Assembly: GCF_014397005.1 (NCBI RefSeq)
Contig: NZ_JACGWS010000001.1
Location: 186,001 to 250,000, forward strand
DNA length: 64,000 nt
Reading direction: 5' to 3'
DNA from: Kordia aestuariivivens
GTDB lineage: Bacteria; Bacteroidota; Bacteroidia; Flavobacteriales; Flavobacteriaceae
Below, one piece after another: positions 43,323 to 51,085 of the stretch (positions within the stretch are counted from its first letter, which is position 1; the number at the start of each line of letters is the position of its first letter). The notes beneath the pieces were generated by a model that had not been told where the DNA came from, searched no databases, and was given only the letters and a program-made list of their open reading frames with translations. The position numbers and the translations under genes are program-made.

Positions 43323-45845
43323 TTGAAGACTACATTCTATTGTTTATTAGCCCTATTTTTCTGCTATTCAGGATTTTCTCAAACGAAAGTAAGTGGATTA
43401 ATCAAAGATACTAATGGAGAACCTGTGCCATTTGCCAATGTTGTATTTAAAAATTCCATTGTTGGAACAATTAGTAATGAAGATGGGCGATTTTACCTAG
43501 AATCCGATAAAACGTACGATATCGTTGTGTTTTCTTTTGTGGGTTATACTACAAAAGAAGTTAAATTAACTAAAAAGGTTAATTACAAAATGGAAATTGT
43601 GCTGGAAGAAGGTGAAAAACTGAAAGCCGTTGTCATTGTTTCAGGAAAGCAATCCAAAAAGAACAATCCAGCGATTGATATTCTCCGAAAAATTTGGGAC
43701 CGAAAACGTTTCAATGGTGTCAATCAGTTCAAGCAATACGCGTATGATAAGTACGAAAAAGTAGAGTTTGATTTAAATACAATTGACAGCGCGATGATGA
43801 AAAGTAGATTGTTTCGCGGAATGGAATTCATCTTCAGTGAAATAGATACTTCACGCATTACAGGAAAAACATATTTGCCAATCTTTATTAATGAAGCGGT
43901 TTCCAAAGTATATGGCGATAATGTCAAAAATAAGGAAAAGGAAGATTTACTCGGAAACAAAAATTCAGGATTTAGTAGCAACGAAACCATTACAGCATTT
44001 ATCAAAGATTTATATGCTGAGTATGATATTTATGATAATTATTTAAAGTTTTTTGACAAGAGCTTTACAAGTCCATTATCACGAACAGGAATCAATACTT
44101 ATAATTATGTATTGGTCGACACGGCGTATATTGATAACAAGCTGTGTTACAATATTGTATACTATCCTAGACGAAAAAACGAACTGACTTTTAAAGGTGA
44201 TTTTTGGGTGAATGATTCTACGTTTGCGATCAAAAAAATAAACCTTCAAGCAAGTAAAAGCGCCAATATCAACTGGGTAAAAGAGATTTACATTGAGCAA
44301 GAATTTGATGTTGTCAATGATTCTGTTTTCTTGTTGAAACGCGATTATATGCTGTCTGATTTCGCATTAAACAAAAAAGAAAAATCAAAAGGTGTGTATG
44401 GAAAGCGTACTACTTTATTTGATAATTATGTGTTTGATGAAGAAAAACCGTCTGGCTTCTATGCAAAAGAAATCAATCCGTTTAACGAAGAAATTTACGA
44501 ACGCGATGATGCTTTCTGGGAAACCAATCGTTTAGAAAAATTAAACAAAGATGAAAAAGGTGTCTACAAAATGTTAGATACTTTAAAAACAGTTCCAAAG
44601 TTCAAACGCTTGTATAATTTGGCTTCTATTTTAGCTTCTGGTTATGTAGAATTTGATAAATACAACATCGATTATGGGCCGATTTTCTCAACGTTCGGAT
44701 TCAATGATGTAGAAGGAATTAGGTTGCGTGCAGGAGGAAGAACCTATTTTGGACCAAACGACAAGTGGAGAGTTGAAGGATATGGCGCGTATGGTTTTAA
44801 AGACAACAGATTCAAATATGGAATCTCAGGAAAATGGTTATTAAACCCAAGAAACAGATTGATTATTTCAGCAGGAAATCGTCGAGATGTGGAACAAACA
44901 GGTGTGAGTTTAACCGTAAATGATAATGTTTTAGGAAGAAGTTTTGCTTCATCTGCATTATTTGCAAGTGGAAATAGTGACCGATTGACAAATATTAATT
45001 TATCAACGTTTGCTGTACAAATGGAGCCATGGAAAAATATTACCATGCGTTTGGGAAGTTCATACAAAACGATGCGTTCTGCATCGCCAACAACATTTAG
45101 TCTGTCTTACCTTGATCCACAAGCACCAAATGGAATTAATGATCGATTGGTACAATCGGAAGTAAACTTTTCTATCGACATGACACCTGGAAGAAGAACC
45201 ATTCGTCATGGTGTAGAACGAAAAGTAGTGAATGATAATTTTCCACGAATTTATCTAAATTATAGTAGAGGTGTGGAAGGATTATTTAATAGTGATTTTA
45301 ACTATTCAAGAGTTCAATTATTTTACAGACAACCATTTCAATTAGGAGGTTTTGGACGTACATTCACTACATTAGAAGCAGGGAAAACGTTTGGAACTGT
45401 TCCGTTAAGTTTACTAAACGTAGTACCAGGAAATCAAGCGTACTTCTCTATTCATAACACATTCTCACAATTGAATTTTTATGAATTTGTAACCGATACG
45501 TATGCTTCTTTACACATAGAACACAACTTTAATGGACGAATTTTTTCAAGAATTCCGTTTTTACGAAAATTAAATTTAAGAGAAATCATAGGAATTCGTG
45601 GAGTTTGGGGACAAATTTCAGATGAAAACGTAGCCATGAATGTTCCAGCATTTCAAAGCTTGCCGTTTAGTAGCATTACACCCGAAGGTATTGCGCCGAA
45701 TAAAGAAATCTATTGGGAATATTCACTCGGAATTGGAAACATCTTTAAAGTCTTTAGAATCGATTTTAACTTTAGAGGAAACTACAAAAACAATATTGAC
45801 GCACGACAATTTGGAGTCACAGGCGCATTTGGATTTCACTTCTAA
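43323..45845 (+). CDS. DUF5686 outer-membrane protein with carboxypeptidase-like N-terminal domain
   Basis: An 840-residue protein whose start codon is TTG (KTTFYCLLALFFCYSGFSQ after the initiator, a clear signal peptide). Residues 20-105 form a CarboxypepD-reg-like domain ('KVSGLIKDTNGEPVPFANVV', 'YDIVVFSFVGYTTKEVKLT'). The middle belongs to DUF5686 ('NPAIDILRKIWDRKRFNG', 'RKNELTFKGDFWVNDSTFAI'), and the C-terminal 350 residues alternate beta strands ending in aromatic 'GVTGAFGFHF', a beta-barrel ending. Located in the outer membrane; possible role in TonB-like uptake or surface assembly is unknown. Confidence 0.88.
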   Translation: MKTTFYCLLALFFCYSGFSQTKVSGLIKDTNGEPVPFANVVFKNSIVGTISNEDGRFYLESDKTYDIVVFSFVGYTTKEVKLTKKVNYKMEIVLEEGEKLKAVVIVSGKQSKKNNPAIDILRKIWDRKRFNGVNQFKQYAYDKYEKVEFDLNTIDSAMMKSRLFRGMEFIFSEIDTSRITGKTYLPIFINEAVSKVYGDNVKNKEKEDLLGNKNSGFSSNETITAFIKDLYAEYDIYDNYLKFFDKSFTSPLSRTGINTYNYVLVDTAYIDNKLCYNIVYYPRRKNELTFKGDFWVNDSTFAIKKINLQASKSANINWVKEIYIEQEFDVVNDSVFLLKRDYMLSDFALNKKEKSKGVYGKRTTLFDNYVFDEEKPSGFYAKEINPFNEEIYERDDAFWETNRLEKLNKDEKGVYKMLDTLKTVPKFKRLYNLASILASGYVEFDKYNIDYGPIFSTFGFNDVEGIRLRAGGRTYFGPNDKWRVEGYGAYGFKDNRFKYGISGKWLLNPRNRLIISAGNRRDVEQTGVSLTVNDNVLGRSFASSALFASGNSDRLTNINLSTFAVQMEPWKNITMRLGSSYKTMRSASPTTFSLSYLDPQAPNGINDRLVQSEVNFSIDMTPGRRTIRHGVERKVVNDNFPRIYLNYSRGVEGLFNSDFNYSRVQLFYRQPFQLGGFGRTFTTLEAGKTFGTVPLSLLNVVPGNQAYFSIHNTFSQLNFYEFVTDTYASLHIEHNFNGRIFSRIPFLRKLNLREIIGIRGVWGQISDENVAMNVPAFQSLPFSSITPEGIAPNKEIYWEYSLGIGNIFKVFRIDFNFRGNYKNNIDARQFGVTGAFGFHF

Positions 45846-45868: not shown

Positions 45869-45903
45869 AAACGGTCATAATTGTAAAATTATGACCGTTT
45901 TTG
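45869..45903 (+). terminator. Terminator after the DUF5686 gene
   Basis: AAACGGTCATAATT / AATTATGACCGTTT, 14 base pairs with a four-base loop and T run. Confidence 0.92.
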
Positions 45904-46028: not shown

Positions 46029-46089
46029 TCGAATTTGCGCAAACACGACATTCTCTTGTTGGAAACCTTCAAGCTGAACAATACATTTG
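46029..46089 (+). promoter_or_regulatory. Palindrome B1 and promoter of peptide 7
   Basis: Imperfect palindrome TCGAATTTGCGCAAACACGA (46029-46048), ten bases, then TTG (46059-46061), 20 bases, and TACATTTG (46082-46089), a full consensus promoter. The same palindrome-10-TTG-20-box architecture is found on the minus strand at 46791-46730. The position just upstream of -33 suits an activator site. Confidence 0.78.
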
Positions 46090-46119
46090 AATCATTATTA
46101 ATCGTATAAAACTTATATC

Positions 46120-46371
46120 ATGAAAAAAAGAAAAGTGAATGTATTAGCCTTAAACAAAAAAATGGTTTCTAACTTAAACTCTAATGAAGTAACTGGTGGT
46201 TGGTTTTCGTATTTCTGTCCAGGAACCAATGATACTAACTGTGATGGTGGTTCACAATCCTGTGATGTAGAATGTGGAGGCGCAAGTAATATATGTCCTT
46301 CTGACCCGAATGGACAATGTGGAGAATCTCAGAAAATTACTTGTGGGGAAACATGTGTATTTTGTCAATAG
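46120..46371 (+). CDS. GG-leader Cys-rich peptide precursor 7
   Basis: An 83-residue precursor: leader MKKRKVNVLALNKKMVSNLN with 'SNEVTGG' ending at 27; core of 56 residues with eleven cysteines ('FCPGTND', 'NCDGGSQSCDVECGG', 'ICPSDPNGQCGES', 'TCGETCVFCQ'), Gly and Asn rich. It has a full promoter with palindrome B1 71 bases upstream. It converges on peptide gene 8 across a shared terminator. Disulfide-rich or thioether-linked product; modification enzymes not in view. Confidence 0.74.
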   Translation: MKKRKVNVLALNKKMVSNLNSNEVTGGWFSYFCPGTNDTNCDGGSQSCDVECGGASNICPSDPNGQCGESQKITCGETCVFCQ

Positions 46372-46390
46372 GAACTAAATAAGAAGATAA

Positions 46391-46446
46391 AAGAGACTGA
46401 ATCTAATGCTTGAAATGTATTTCTTCAACTCAGATTCAGTTTCTTT
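46391..46446. terminator. Bidirectional terminator between peptides 7 and 8
   Basis: AAGAGACTGAATCT pairs with AGATTCAGTTTCTT (one G-T), long loop, A and T rich flanks. Confidence 0.72.
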
Positions 46447-46449
46447 ATT

Positions 46450-46701
46450 TTACATAATATTGATAGAATAATCTCCTAATGAATCACTCGTACGCGTATT
46501 TATAGTACCTTGAGTATGACAAGTGTCAAATTCGTGTGTTTCATTATTACAAACATCGTTGAGACAAGACGTGACTCCAATGGTTTCGCCTGAAATTTCT
46601 CCGCAATTAGTATTTGTTAAAGCGCCACCTTTTATGTTTAGTGTGTGTGCTAATTTGGCAATTTTAAATTTTTTAAGTGCTAGTTTTTTATACTTCTTCA
46701 T
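46450..46701 (-). CDS. GG-leader Cys-containing peptide precursor 8
   Basis: An 83-residue precursor: leader MKKYKKLALKKFKIAKLAHT with 'LNIKGG', core 'ALTNTNCGEISGETIGVTSC' onwards with four cysteines and a Ser/Thr-rich tail that lacks a final Cys ('NTRTSDSLGDYSINIM'). The leader differs slightly from those of peptides 1-6 and resembles that of peptide 9 (KxKIAxL). It lies 106 bases downstream of the TPR/AraC regulator at 46808-48520; palindrome B2 and a promoter lie in that gap, so the peptide is an independently switched gene next to its probable regulator. Confidence 0.72.
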   Translation of the reverse strand: MKKYKKLALKKFKIAKLAHTLNIKGGALTNTNCGEISGETIGVTSCLNDVCNNETHEFDTCHTQGTINTRTSDSLGDYSINIM

Positions 46702-46729
46702 GAGATTTTGTATGAATGATTAATGCGTT

Positions 46730-46791
46730 CTAAACTAAAGGTAAAATAGCGTAAACGCAAAGAAGAAGCTATCGTATTTGCGCAAATACGA
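46730..46791 (-). promoter_or_regulatory. Palindrome B2 and promoter of peptide 8
   Basis: Perfect 20-base palindrome TCGTATTTGCGCAAATACGA (46772-46791). On the minus strand it is followed by ten bases, TTTG (46761-46758), 20 bases and TAGTTTAG (46737-46730), a seven-of-eight -7 box. The start codon at 46701 lies 70 bases from the palindrome, against 71 for B1. A smaller dyad GCGTAAACGC (46749-46758) overlaps the -33 area. Confidence 0.78.
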
Positions 46792-46807: not shown

Positions 46808-48520
46808 TTATTCCTTTAATTTATTTAAGTTTTTGATATAAAAAGAAGGATAAATTCCAGTGCGTTTTTTAAAGGCTTTCGAGAAGGATTCAGACGTGTT
46901 AAAACCTAATTCAGCTGCAATGGATTTAATATCATACTTTCTAAAAGTTGCGTCATTTTTTAATTGAGACAATGCATAATCAATCCGTAAATCGGTAATA
47001 TACTGTACAAACTTTTTTTGCTTGTGCGATTGTAATGTTCTAGATAAATACGTTTTATTCGTGTGAATTTTCTTTGCTACAAAATTAATAGTGCAATTTT
47101 TATGCAGAAACAATTTCTTCTCTTCAAACTTTGCCAAACCTTGTAAAATCTTGGCAATATTTTCATCTTTTATCGTATAAGATTGTGAACTATCTTCTTC
47201 GGGAGCAGTCTTTTCTGTTGTGTTGAGTGTTGCCAAAATAGCGTTGAAACTCTTTTTATATTTCTGTACTTTATTTCTATAAAACACAAAACCTAAGGCG
47301 AGTAATGCCAGCAATCCCAAACTTATATATATCAATGTTTGTGATAATTGTTCTTGTTTATTTGATTGATTTTCAAGTTGATTAATTTTATTCTTAAAAG
47401 ATGGAATATCATATTGCGTATAAACATTTTCAGATGCTTCCCGAACTCTTTGGTCATTTTCTTTGTCTTTTTCCTCAAAACGACGATAATACTTTACTGC
47501 ATTTTTTTGATCATTCAGAGCGTCATAAGATTTTGCCAGAAGAATATAGGTTTCTTCAAAAAAAGGAGAAATTTTTGCTTCTTTTTGATAAGTGCTATCC
47601 GCTTTCAATAAATACGTTACTGCATTTTTGTAATGCTCTTTTAAAAAGAAGTTTTTCCCTTTATACAAGTATAAAACAGGCAATTGTTTATGGAATGATA
47701 ATTTTTTGGCATATTGCTCTGCACTATCTAGATGTGTAAGAGCGTCAATCAAATTTCCTCGCTTTTGATGAATAATTCCTTTGAGCGTTAAAAATAAATT
47801 GTAAACTTCAAGATCATTTGCCTCCAAGCTTTCTTTTAAACCTCTAGTATTTGCAATTTCTGCCGAATCTAAATACACATTGCGAAGTGCTGGAAAATCT
47901 TCGGAAAGCTTCGCGTACGTATCACTAAGTCCTAAAAGCGTATTGAAATATGATAACTTATATGGATTGCTTTCCGAGGACGTTTCATAAAAAGTTAAAT
48001 TCTCTTTAAAATATTCCAACGCTTGTTTTCTATAACCAAGATCGCTTTTTAAAATAGCAACACTGTTTGATATTTTTGCTAATTTGACTTTTTCGTCTGT
48101 ATTCTTAAGCAAATCATACGCTTTTGAGTAGTATTCTATGGCTTCTTTATACGCTTTGGCATTATGATAAATAACACCTTTTTTATAAATTCCGTTTACA
48201 TAACTATTAGCGTCAGTGGATCTTGAAATATAAATATCTATAAAATAATGAGCACTATCTTGCTGACCTAAAGCGTCATAAACAATGGCGTTTAAAAAAC
48301 TTCCGCGTGATGTTTCATGATCATTTTTTTCTAAAACAGCTTTCTTATAATATGCAATAGTTACTTTTTTAGCTTTCTCTAAATCTGAAAAACGATATTG
48401 TTTATATAAACTCTTTAAAGAATCGTATGATACATCTATTAAAGAATCATCTGTTTGTTGTGCTGCAATTGTTTGAAAGATAAATAGTGAAAAGAGTAGA
48501 AAAAATATGTTTTTTATCAT
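46808..48520 (-). CDS. Membrane-spanning TPR sensor/AraC-type regulator 1
   Basis: A 570-residue protein starting MIKNIFFLLFSLFIFQ; an ATG nine codons earlier is less likely. Signal-like helix 1-20 ('IAAQQ'), then about 350 residues of TPR-type helical repeats ('AIEYYSKAYDLLKN', 'ALEYFKENLTFYET', 'AVTYLLKADSTYQ', 'AVKYYRRFEEKDKEN'), a short coiled coil, a membrane helix ('TLIYISLGLLALLALGFVFY'), and a cytoplasmic AraC HTH domain in the last 110 residues ('INFVAKKIHTNKTYLSRTLQ', 'SIAAELGFNTSESFSKAFKK', 'RTGIYPSFYI'). The topology puts the TPRs in the periplasm: a one-component transmembrane regulator. A 9-base inverted repeat lies upstream. Confidence 0.88.
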   Translation of the reverse strand: MIKNIFFLLFSLFIFQTIAAQQTDDSLIDVSYDSLKSLYKQYRFSDLEKAKKVTIAYYKKAVLEKNDHETSRGSFLNAIVYDALGQQDSAHYFIDIYISRSTDANSYVNGIYKKGVIYHNAKAYKEAIEYYSKAYDLLKNTDEKVKLAKISNSVAILKSDLGYRKQALEYFKENLTFYETSSESNPYKLSYFNTLLGLSDTYAKLSEDFPALRNVYLDSAEIANTRGLKESLEANDLEVYNLFLTLKGIIHQKRGNLIDALTHLDSAEQYAKKLSFHKQLPVLYLYKGKNFFLKEHYKNAVTYLLKADSTYQKEAKISPFFEETYILLAKSYDALNDQKNAVKYYRRFEEKDKENDQRVREASENVYTQYDIPSFKNKINQLENQSNKQEQLSQTLIYISLGLLALLALGFVFYRNKVQKYKKSFNAILATLNTTEKTAPEEDSSQSYTIKDENIAKILQGLAKFEEKKLFLHKNCTINFVAKKIHTNKTYLSRTLQSHKQKKFVQYITDLRIDYALSQLKNDATFRKYDIKSIAAELGFNTSESFSKAFKKRTGIYPSFYIKNLNKLKE

Positions 48521-48536
48521 GAAACAAGAGAATGGC

Positions 48537-48567
48537 ATTCTATACATAATTATAAAAAGTATAGAAT
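48537..48567. promoter_or_regulatory. Inverted repeat upstream of regulator 1
   Basis: ATTCTATAC (48537-48545), 13 bases, GTATAGAAT (48559-48567), beginning 16 bases before the start of the regulator gene. It is a perfect 9-base inverted repeat and could bind a regulator or form an mRNA hairpin. Confidence 0.45.
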
Positions 48568-48980: not shown

Positions 48981-49226
48981 TTAGCATATTGCATGGTCTC
49001 GAGTTTCTCCGTCTCCACCACAAACATCGCTTTCTGATACTGTTTTAATTGTAGTAGGGCAATATTTATAAGTATCACATTCAAATGAGTTAGCGCATGT
49101 ACAGGTAGGTTCATGAGGTTGATCACCTGTTGGACAATGCGTAGTGACTCCACCAACTAAAGAGTTAATAATGTTAACTCCTGCAATTTTAATCTTTCCT
49201 AAATTTAATTTTTTTTGTTTCTTCAT
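48981..49226 (-). CDS. GG-leader Cys-rich peptide precursor 9
   Basis: An 81-residue precursor starting MKKQKKLNLGKIKIAGVNII with 'NSLVGG' ending at 26; an in-frame extension 17 codons upstream is rejected. The 55-residue core has eight cysteines ('HCPTGDQPHEPTCTCANSFE', 'CDTYKYCPT', 'VCGGDGE', terminal 'AIC') and resembles no family I know. It lies 68 bases downstream of regulator 2, with no convincing promoter between them, so it may be co-transcribed with that regulator. Confidence 0.72.
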   Translation of the reverse strand: MKKQKKLNLGKIKIAGVNIINSLVGGVTTHCPTGDQPHEPTCTCANSFECDTYKYCPTTIKTVSESDVCGGDGETRDHAIC

Positions 49227-49294
49227 GACAATATGTTTTAGTGAGCTCGAAAGTAGTTGTGTTAAGTGTAAAAACAAAACAAAACACCCTGTAA

Positions 49295-51085
49295 TTATCG
49301 AATTAAAGGTTCTTGAATGTCTTCTGAGGTGTTGATTTTATTGATGTTTTTAATATAATAAGAAGGATATATGCCTGTTTTACTCTTGAAAGCTCTAGAG
49401 AACGAATCTGGTGATTTAAAACCTAATTCTGAAGCAATAGACTTAATATCATACGAACGAAAAAGCTTGTCTTCTTTTAATTTTTCTAAGGCAAAAGTAA
49501 TTCGCAAATTTGTAATGTATTGGATAAATTTCTGTTGTTTTTCCGAATGAATTACTTTTGATAAATACGCTTTGTTTGTTTTTACTTTTTTTGCGACAAA
49601 TGCTAAATCGCAATTCACATCTAGAAAAAGTTTCTTTTGTTCAAACTTGTCTAAAGCAGTAAGAATTTGTTGTATTTTTTCTTCGTCAATAGTTAAGGTA
49701 GGTTTTGACTTTTCTTTTTTTACAGGAACAATTTCTTTCTTTGTCTTCAACTCCTTTAAGAGATTCTGAAACTTAGCTTCATTTTGACGTTGTTTACCTT
49801 TACTGTATACTAGAAATAGTAAGAAAAGGAAAATAAGAACGATAATTATGATCAGAGCTACAGTATAGTTATTTTCTTTTTCTTCTTGATCTGCTATTAA
49901 TCTTTTTATTTGATCCTCTAATTTTTCCATGTCATGATCTCGAATAGCGCTTTTTACACTTTTGCTAACGTGCTCATTAATTTTCCTGTTCTCTTTATAT
50001 AATTCCCAATATTTAAGAGTGTTTTTTCCGTCACCCTTTTTACTATAAAAATCTGTTAGTGTATAATATGTTCTGTCTAGAAGTATATAATTGGCAACAT
50101 TTTTTTGGGATACAGAATCAGTTTTTCTTAAAAAGTCAATTGCTTTTTCTTCTTGTCCAAGTTTTTTATAACTGACTCCAATGTAATAATATATACTTGT
50201 AAGTAAGACTTTTTCACCTTGTTGAATTGCTTTTCTTTCTGCAATATTTAATTCAGAAATAGCTTTTTGATACTCCCCTTTTTCATGATTTATAATTCCA
50301 TATTCGGTTAAAAAATAAATATATCGAGAAACATTATCAACACGTAGTGATTCTTTTAAGCCTATTTCATTGTAGATTTCAGCAGAGTCTAATAAACTTT
50401 TTTTTAAATCTTCTTCATTTGCAGCATATTTTACATAAGTGTCTGTTAGTGCTATTAATGTACTTAAGTACGAATAGGAATAAGAATTAGATTTTCGTTC
50501 TTCTTCGGAGAATGAATTGTAATAGTTGTAATTTTTCAGCAGAATTTTTAAAGCAGCCTCCTGATCTCCTAAAATATTTTCTACTAATGCGATATTATGA
50601 GAAACCATATATGTCATACGAGGATTCGAATCTTTATAAAAACTATAAGCAATACTATAGTTTTCAAAAGCTTCTTCATATTTGCCGTAATCATATAAAA
50701 TTTTTCCTTTTAGGAATATGGACAGAACTTCTAGGTTGCGGTCTTTTAATTGTGTTGTGGCAATGTCTCTTGCTGTTTCAATATATTCAACTGCCTGATC
50801 ATGGTTTCCTTTGTTATTCTCTAAAACTGCATAGCGCCTGTAGGCGTAAAATAATTTTAATGAATCATTTTTCTTCTGTGCATTTTCAAAAAGCTTATCT
50901 GCATATATCTTTGCTTTGTTAGACTCGTTATATAAATATTTTAAATAAAACTTATTAAGTTCTTTGTATGAATACTTCGCCAAGGAATCAACTTCTTGTT
51001 CTTGGGCATAAAATGTTTGAGTTGAGGTATATATGCAAAAAAGCAGCAATAGCCTTAAATAAGTTGGAGGAATTATAAAGCGCAT
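49295..51085 (-). CDS. Membrane-spanning TPR sensor/AraC-type regulator 2
   Basis: A 596-residue paralogue of the 46808 protein with the same order: signal-type helix (1-28, 'TQTFYAQ'), TPR-rich periplasmic part ('AVEYIETARDIATTQLKDRN', 'AFENYSIAYSFYKD', 'AISELNIAERKAIQ', 'AIDFLRKTDSVSQ'), coiled coil, membrane helix ('VALIIIIVLIFLFLLFLVY') and AraC HTH ('LAFVAKKVKTNKAYLSKVIH', 'SIASELGFKSPDSFSRAFKS', 'KTGIYPSYYIKNIN'). A -7 box TAGATTTG on the minus strand lies at 51184-51177. With peptide 9 downstream it forms a second regulator-peptide cassette next to the first. Confidence 0.88.
   Translation of the reverse strand: MRFIIPPTYLRLLLLFCIYTSTQTFYAQEQEVDSLAKYSYKELNKFYLKYLYNESNKAKIYADKLFENAQKKNDSLKLFYAYRRYAVLENNKGNHDQAVEYIETARDIATTQLKDRNLEVLSIFLKGKILYDYGKYEEAFENYSIAYSFYKDSNPRMTYMVSHNIALVENILGDQEAALKILLKNYNYYNSFSEEERKSNSYSYSYLSTLIALTDTYVKYAANEEDLKKSLLDSAEIYNEIGLKESLRVDNVSRYIYFLTEYGIINHEKGEYQKAISELNIAERKAIQQGEKVLLTSIYYYIGVSYKKLGQEEKAIDFLRKTDSVSQKNVANYILLDRTYYTLTDFYSKKGDGKNTLKYWELYKENRKINEHVSKSVKSAIRDHDMEKLEDQIKRLIADQEEKENNYTVALIIIIVLIFLFLLFLVYSKGKQRQNEAKFQNLLKELKTKKEIVPVKKEKSKPTLTIDEEKIQQILTALDKFEQKKLFLDVNCDLAFVAKKVKTNKAYLSKVIHSEKQQKFIQYITNLRITFALEKLKEDKLFRSYDIKSIASELGFKSPDSFSRAFKSKTGIYPSYYIKNINKINTSEDIQEPLIR

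Follow-up and report, generated by a model that had tools for sequence, protein, structure and literature searches.

A conserved palindrome as the probable operator of a TPR-membrane-AraC regulator and two leader-peptide genes in Kordia aestuariivivens

Organization of the palindrome B locus

The window analyzed here is a 64-kb stretch (64,000 nt) of the genome of Kordia aestuariivivens (5.46 Mb, 46 contigs, 99.98% complete). It contains two copies of a 20-bp palindrome, termed palindrome B, at the positions given in an earlier note on this DNA (Table 1). Each copy precedes a gene for a leader peptide, and the two genes are convergent, as that note had described. Copy 2 is a perfect palindrome and lies 16 nt from the stop codon of the gene for regulator 1, again in agreement with the note. 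Regulator 2, a paralogue with the same domain order, is encoded nearby together with its own S-type peptide. A strong terminator-like hairpin (45870-45899; z -7.3) follows the gene at 43323-45845 and separates it from copy 1.

Table 1. Features of the palindrome B locus and the neighboring regulator 2 module (positions in the window)
Feature	Position	Strand	Basis or remark
Palindrome B copy 1 (TCGAATTTGCGCAAACACGA)	46029..46048	+	Proposed operator of the E-type peptide gene
-33 TTG (copy 1 promoter)	46059..46061	+	Ungapped alignment of 13 promoters
-7 box TACATTTG	46082..46089	+	Predicted transcription start about 46094
E-type leader peptide, 83 aa	46120..46371	+	Class I lanthipeptide-like leader; NF038153 15.5 bits, below cut-off 22
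S-type leader peptide, 83 aa, neighboring peptide of regulator 1	46450..46701	-	ORF position
-7 box TAGTTTAG	46730..46737	-	Predicted transcription start about 46725
-33 TTTG (copy 2 promoter)	46758..46761	-	Position relative to palindrome
Palindrome B copy 2 (perfect, TCGTATTTGCGCAAATACGA)	46772..46791	.	Proposed operator of the S-type peptide gene
Regulator 1	46808..48547	-	N-terminal hydrophobic stretch, then TPR solenoid, membrane helix, and AraC DNA-binding domain; possible alternative start, ATG at 48520
S-type leader peptide of regulator 2	48981..49226	-	ORF position
Operator type A, regulator 2 (CCTTTAATTCGATAATTACAGG on minus strand)	49288..49309	.	Overlaps regulator 2 stop codon
Regulator 2, paralogue	49295..51085	-	Pfam search; 36% identical to regulator 1

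The assignment of regulator 1 to the AraC type is upheld by a C-terminal match to PF12833 (HTH_18) at residues 491-572, which scored 58.9 bits against a cut-off of 33.6 (6.2e-16); the TPR region matched TPR_12 (1.5e-12). Hydropathy peaks begin at residues 4 and 400 of regulator 1. In regulator 2, a membrane-helix peak begins at residue 403, and no N-terminal hydropathy peak rose over the threshold. The AlphaFold model of regulator 1 (mean pLDDT 82.4, pTM 0.58, nine sequences) consists of a helical solenoid (41-378), a long helix (382-446), and then a C-terminal helical domain. Given the order of the domains and hydrophobic stretches, the TPR part is predicted to be periplasmic.

The earlier note proposed an identical promoter architecture before both peptide genes, with a TTG exactly 10 bases from each palindrome. 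The layout does recur, with one spacing off by one base and with different leader types. The gap to TTG is 10 nt at copy 1 and 11 nt at copy 2, where 10 nt reaches TTTG. The other measurements hold at both copies: 20 nt separate the -33 element from a TAnnTTTG-type box, and the palindrome is 71 nt (copy 1) or 70 nt (copy 2) from the ATG. According to the available text of a study of Flavobacterium psychrophilum, the sigma-A -7 box TAnnTTTG occupies -12 to -5 (PMC9723704), and palindrome B would therefore span about -65 to -46.

Leaders of the E type resemble the lanthipeptide leader family NF038153 and those of the S type the GG-leader RiPP model TIGR04149, mostly with scores below the cut-offs. 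Among six E-type peptides other than that of the window, one exceeded the NF038153 cut-off (24.0, encoded at the LanB locus), four fell below it, and one had no match. Four S-type peptides compared with TIGR04149 gave one score over the cut-off (25.5 vs 25), two below, and one without a match; family profile searches with the two window S-type peptides returned no family at E 0.1. The genome encodes both LanB and LanC, as expected for class I lanthipeptides. Its single lantibiotic dehydratase match (PF04738) is on contig C16, in a locus (L257, G000:C16 6885-19676) with LanC/LanB/Lant_dehydr_C and LANC_like matches, further leader peptides, and a transporter, and this locus is adjoined by two tandem modules of regulator and S-type peptide. 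Three C39-peptidase matches were found, two of them in ABC transporters (C16 and C1) and a weaker one on C44. With a Lan locus and C39-peptidase transporters in the genome, the window peptides might be modified and exported.

Recurrence of palindrome B in Kordia genomes

Within the window, a degenerate form of the palindrome with three mismatches allowed gave four strand matches (both sites, each counted on both strands) against 0.11 expected, and none of 100 dinucleotide shuffles reached four. The genome scan suggested in the earlier note was performed over 5,461,693 bases; the perfect 20-mer occurred at ≤3 mismatches only at the two window places, and a reversed control pattern gave 0 matches in the same scan. 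The two copies are identical at 18/20 positions within the palindrome and unlike outside it (18/40 in the 40 nt before, 5/10 in the 10 nt after, and 17/60 in the next 60 nt). Palindrome B is therefore conserved on its own, and a recent duplication of the promoter region can be ruled out by the dissimilar flanks. The core TTTGCGCAAA alone is unremarkable, with 36 places in the genome and 20 for its reversed control.

A broad search of 60 genomes at ≤3 mismatches returned 14 sites in 11 genomes, of which five were looked at: one each in G001, G005, and G008 and the two window copies. This search first revealed palindromes beside related regulators in those three genomes. Their sites, and that of a regulator 1 paralogue elsewhere in the K. 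aestuariivivens genome (C1:154699), share TCGTATTT and AAATACGA and differ in the four central bases. The conserved element is thus TCGTATTT-N4-AAATACGA; the GCGC center common to both window copies is not conserved and is replaced by ATAT in the site of the paralogue. All four of these sites lie 63-70 bp before the ATG of the associated peptide gene. The earlier note had named a lack of conservation upstream of orthologous peptide genes, combined with no binding by either AraC domain, as grounds for refuting its proposal; on the side of conservation, the proposal holds.

The pattern TCGTATTTN4AAATACGA, from which copy 1 departs by two mismatches, was then searched at ≤1 mismatch in 11 Kordia genomes and gave 19 sites, compared with three for the reversed control. 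Eleven of the 19 are 63-71 bp upstream of the ATG of a leader peptide: five directly behind a regulator gene (S-type) and six elsewhere (E-type), the latter 68-70 bp upstream of lanthipeptide-type peptide genes. Of the remaining eight, six fall within long ORFs with no accompanying leader peptide, and two are at other intergenic places. As a background, 262 of 12,400 window positions (2.1%) have a leader peptide 60-75 bp away, or 119 of 12,400 (1.0%) when a glycine motif is also required; 11/19 sites pass either criterion. The corresponding binomial P values, 2e-14 and 4e-18, are both overstated, since related genomes do not count as independent and true cases are part of the background. At two mismatches, the eight remaining sites of the K. 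aestuariivivens genome are all inside ORFs, and G006 has one site that is also 68 bp before an E-type gene. The close relative of regulator 1 in G006 (L071) has no palindrome before its own S-type gene, though E-type copies exist in that genome.

The distribution of the peptide-linked sites follows that of the regulators. In a tree of 71 sampled regulators, those associated with palindrome B form a clade (palB) with a support of 0.998, two outgroup members of which have a five-base center. All 11 peptide-linked sites are confined to the genomes that supply this clade (G000, G001, G005, G006, and G008); among the other six Kordia genomes, four have no site and two have only sites within ORFs. 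A search with the regulator alignment recovered 22 loci with named records, 15 of them from Kordia. Over the last 115 aligned residues, the C1:154699 paralogue is 78% identical to regulator 1. A 392-residue neighbor gene is common to this paralogue and the relatives in G001, G005, and G008 (L230, L231, L233, and L234). Regulator 1 is probably a divergent paralogue and not a syntenic orthologue, because the neighbor gene marks the paralogue and those relatives; the tree agrees.

In three Kordia genomes (L226, L227, and L229; positions 965-1010), a palindrome-B-like sequence is also found at the end of one gene, just before the next. It probably reflects coding conservation; the gene is presumably a sugar-nucleotide gene, a name taken from the sequence of its neighbor.

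Thirteen palindrome-linked promoters (the 11 peptide-linked sites, copy 1 of the window, and the two-mismatch site of G006) were aligned without gaps, anchored on the palindrome alone. At the -33 place, 11-13 nt after the palindrome, T, T, and G are present in 13/13, 11/13, and 7/13 promoters. A TAnnTTTG box starts 34 nt after the palindrome, with T in 12/13, A in 10/13, T in 12/13, and T in 13/13; the S-type promoter of the window is shifted by one base in this alignment. Several of the E-type promoters have a poor -33 box, which fits activation yet weakens the promoter call.

Regulator-peptide modules across the genus

The arrangement in the window is one instance of a genus-wide regulator-peptide design. 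The loci read contain 74 distinct full-length TPR-membrane-AraC regulators, a sample biased to the best-scoring ones. A leader-peptide ORF follows on the same strand within 400 bp in 71 of the 74 (median distance 96 bp) and within 200 bp in 68; in the K. aestuariivivens genome, 32 of 35 regulators are followed by one. The criterion is loose and was passed by 10/54 other long ORFs (450 aa or more). Four alike AraC proteins (L138-L141; frames of 237-253 residues) have signal-like N-termini and no TPR; no leader peptide adjoins three of them, and a doubtful one lies beside the fourth.

Palindromes at a fixed place are a feature of the modules more broadly. They were positioned by their predicted promoters, with some mislocated, and at L044 a second peptide was taken. 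In 53 modules, palindromy centered 20-21 bp upstream of the -33 TTG scored 5.36 and 4.72 of 12, compared with a mean of 3.55 at other offsets (sd 0.30, largest 4.04); an enlarged set of 69 modules gave 4.99 and 4.48 of 12 at these offsets vs 3.00-4.25 elsewhere. At least 8/12 palindrome matches were present at the fixed offset in 24/56 modules and in 0-3 at other offset pairs. For the 20 modules of the K. aestuariivivens genome alone, mean palindromy was not distinctive (4.75 of 12 at offset 20 and 4.55 at offset 21, with up to 4.6 at other offsets), so that the signal in the mean comes from the genus set; here, 8/20 modules had ≥8/12 at the fixed offset, vs at most two at other offset pairs.

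The sequences at this place are of several types. The type of regulator 2 recurs before peptide genes in G001, G006, and G008 and elsewhere in the K. aestuariivivens genome. At ≤2 mismatches, it has 55 sites in the 11 genomes, of which 13 have a leader peptide 45-90 bp away (five of these being the neighboring type CCTTAAATT), 24 are inside ORFs, and 18 are neither. A third type has 13 sites: six with a peptide, five inside ORFs, and two neither. Partial Mantel tests were applied to the 34 of 71 modules with ≥7/12 palindrome matches. Operator distance correlated with the distance between DNA-binding domains given the TPR (0.376, p 0.001) and not appreciably with TPR distance given the DNA-binding domain (0.066, p 0.18). 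By this measure, the sequence of an operator goes with the DNA-binding domain of its regulator and not with the TPR domain. In all 71 modules, with the DNA-binding domain controlled for, the peptide core varied with TPR distance (0.211, p 0.003; converse 0.117, p 0.03). The leader, which is not the expected ligand, shows like co-variation (0.295 with the TPR and 0.189 with the DNA-binding domain). The data are consistent with a pairing of peptide and TPR domain, in the form of a weak co-variation that is not specific to the core.

Proposed function and relation to known systems

Palindrome B is, with good confidence, the operator through which regulator 1 would activate the neighboring S-type gene and the convergent E-type gene. 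Because related Kordia keep the site at a like distance before their own peptide genes, it is very probably the landing site of the adjoining membrane regulator. Comparison of sequences establishes that the site exists, that its placement is fixed, that it goes with this clade of regulators, and that unlinked E-type genes are preceded by it as well; the case for operator identity on these grounds is strong. The earlier note had taken the geometry to indicate an activator site, with the neighboring AraC-type protein as its regulator, and the conserved site and its placement support this. Activation is likely, rather than repression. Palindromic sites are common for repressors and the sequence does not reveal the sign of regulation, so a repressor operator, with which the regulator or another factor keeps the peptide genes off, was considered. 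However, a site that spans about -65 to -46 stays entirely on the upstream side of the -33 element and does not overlap the promoter, and several family members have a poor -33 box, as an activated promoter would; repression is accordingly given a small probability. A somewhat larger one, still well short of even, is assigned to the possibility that the operators are real and the C1:154699 paralogue is their main activator, or that the two proteins cross-regulate. The half-sites beside both regulator genes are identical, as is much of the C-terminal sequence compared above. Against this, both window copies have the GCGC center, the site of the paralogue has ATAT, and regulator 1 is adjacent.

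Two further explanations were considered. Copy 1 does not adjoin a regulator gene and the core TTTGCGCAAA is common, as might be expected if a different, global factor used the sites and the position of the regulator gene beside one copy were fortuitous. A global factor recognizing TTTGCGCAAA was rejected because that core is common and not conserved. The wider form of the idea is very improbable: it is the TCGTATTT arms that are conserved, peptide-linked sites are found only in genomes supplying the palB clade, and other clades carry different palindromes at a like place, with the operator following the DNA-binding domain. The least credible reading makes the palindrome beside the regulator gene an RNA hairpin, such as a transcription terminator. 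The palindrome does come just after the regulator 1 stop codon, the palindrome of the paralogue is followed by a T-rich stretch, and copy 2 folds somewhat better than shuffles (z -1.37; 14/200 as good), but not as the palindrome hairpin. Copy 1 folds no better than shuffles (z +0.67), unlike the hairpin at 45870-45899, and both it and the copies of the E-type genes precede promoters at a fixed distance; the hairpin reading was rejected on the folding comparison.

If regulator 1 does act through palindrome B, the following mechanism can be proposed, in which dimer binding, membrane topology, activation, and the signal are the parts that we infer. Regulator 1 would be a membrane-spanning one-component factor with a periplasmic TPR part and a cytoplasmic AraC-type DNA-binding domain. 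A dimer would occupy the two inverted TCGTATTT half-sites, centered about 55 bp upstream of the transcription start, and recruit RNA polymerase to a weak TTG/TAnnTTTG promoter, turning on the neighboring S-type peptide and the convergent E-type lanthipeptide-like peptide. In short, a membrane one-component activator would drive its neighboring peptide gene and one or a few lanthipeptide-like genes. The most likely signal, by hypothesis, is the exported S-type peptide or its mature form, which would be bound by the TPR domain and create a positive feedback.

Parts of this design are familiar from other systems. AraC/XylS one-component activators also have a C-terminal AraC-type HTH (PF12833), with a site just upstream of the promoter, as proposed here. 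AraC-family sites are often direct or asymmetric repeats; the site here is a near-perfect inverted repeat, and regulator 1 differs further in being predicted to span the membrane and in its TPR part. Hybrid two-component systems of Bacteroidetes combine a sensor, a membrane helix, and an AraC output in one chain, as regulator 1 does. In contrast, neither regulator 1 nor regulator 2 has a Pfam match to histidine kinase or receiver domains at E 0.1, and both have a putative TPR sensor and a peptide-gene partner. The TPR solenoid is shared with the RNPP/Rap peptide-pheromone receptors of Firmicutes. In a fold search with regulator 1, RapF with its inhibitory peptide (4i9c) ranked 33 and a phage Rap with its pheromone (8rst) ranked 42; this likeness is generic, since TPR peptide binders of eukaryotes (LGN and Pins) head the list, and fold matches of so general a kind do not identify a ligand. 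RNPP regulators are cytosolic, with an N-terminal HTH of another kind followed by the TPR, whereas here the TPR comes first, the AraC output comes last, and both regulators have a membrane-helix peak.

Nisin, Blp, and plantaricin are peptide-autoinduced bacteriocin or lanthipeptide regulons that act through a kinase and a response regulator. They too place a double-glycine leader peptide and a bacteriocin-like peptide under one operator type; the regulator here is one-component, and autoinduction is hypothetical. As in class I lanthipeptides of Bacteroidetes, the genome pairs E-type leaders like NF038153 with a LanC/LanB locus and C39 ABC transporters. Unlike them, the precursors linked to the palindrome are encoded at a distance from the modifying enzymes, and the window peptides fall below or outside the family cut-off. 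A survey of Bacteroidales RiPPs pointed to two clusters with tetratricopeptide-like genes and a further one with an HTH gene, all as possible regulators (PMC10352776); these are separate observations, and the portion of that survey available describes no fused TPR-membrane-AraC protein, one-to-one pairing, or operator. A literature search at the title and abstract level, with most subscription journals and preprints outside its range, found no description of the regulator-peptide pairing.

For a large family of uncharacterized membrane regulators, and for lanthipeptide-like genes that are scattered and would otherwise be orphans, these results yield a wiring diagram that can be put to the test, with operator, promoter, and targets readable from sequence. 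If the TPR domains sense the neighboring peptides, the family would represent Gram-negative peptide signaling with many parallel channels. More tentatively, and with the balance of probability against it, Kordia might run ~30 such channels in parallel: an exported double-glycine peptide would be sensed in the periplasm by the TPR of its own AraC regulator, which through a private palindrome would amplify the peptide and switch on one or few lanthipeptides elsewhere in the genome. In Kordia algicida, protease release responds to culture density and to cell-free filtrate, and no acyl-homoserine lactone was detected, according to the available text of one report (PMC3117869). The K. algicida genome (G009) has 22 matches to the family regulators, and a whole-genome pattern search found no palindrome B site in it at one mismatch. 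Were the ~30-channel reading true, other channels of the family, not palindrome B, would be candidates for its density signal. This link is tentative because, as far as the available text of a later study goes, inactive cultures stayed inactive on re-inoculation and nutrient starvation was stressed (PMC10565126). If true, the ~30-channel reading would amount to Gram-negative peptide quorum sensing without a kinase or response regulator.
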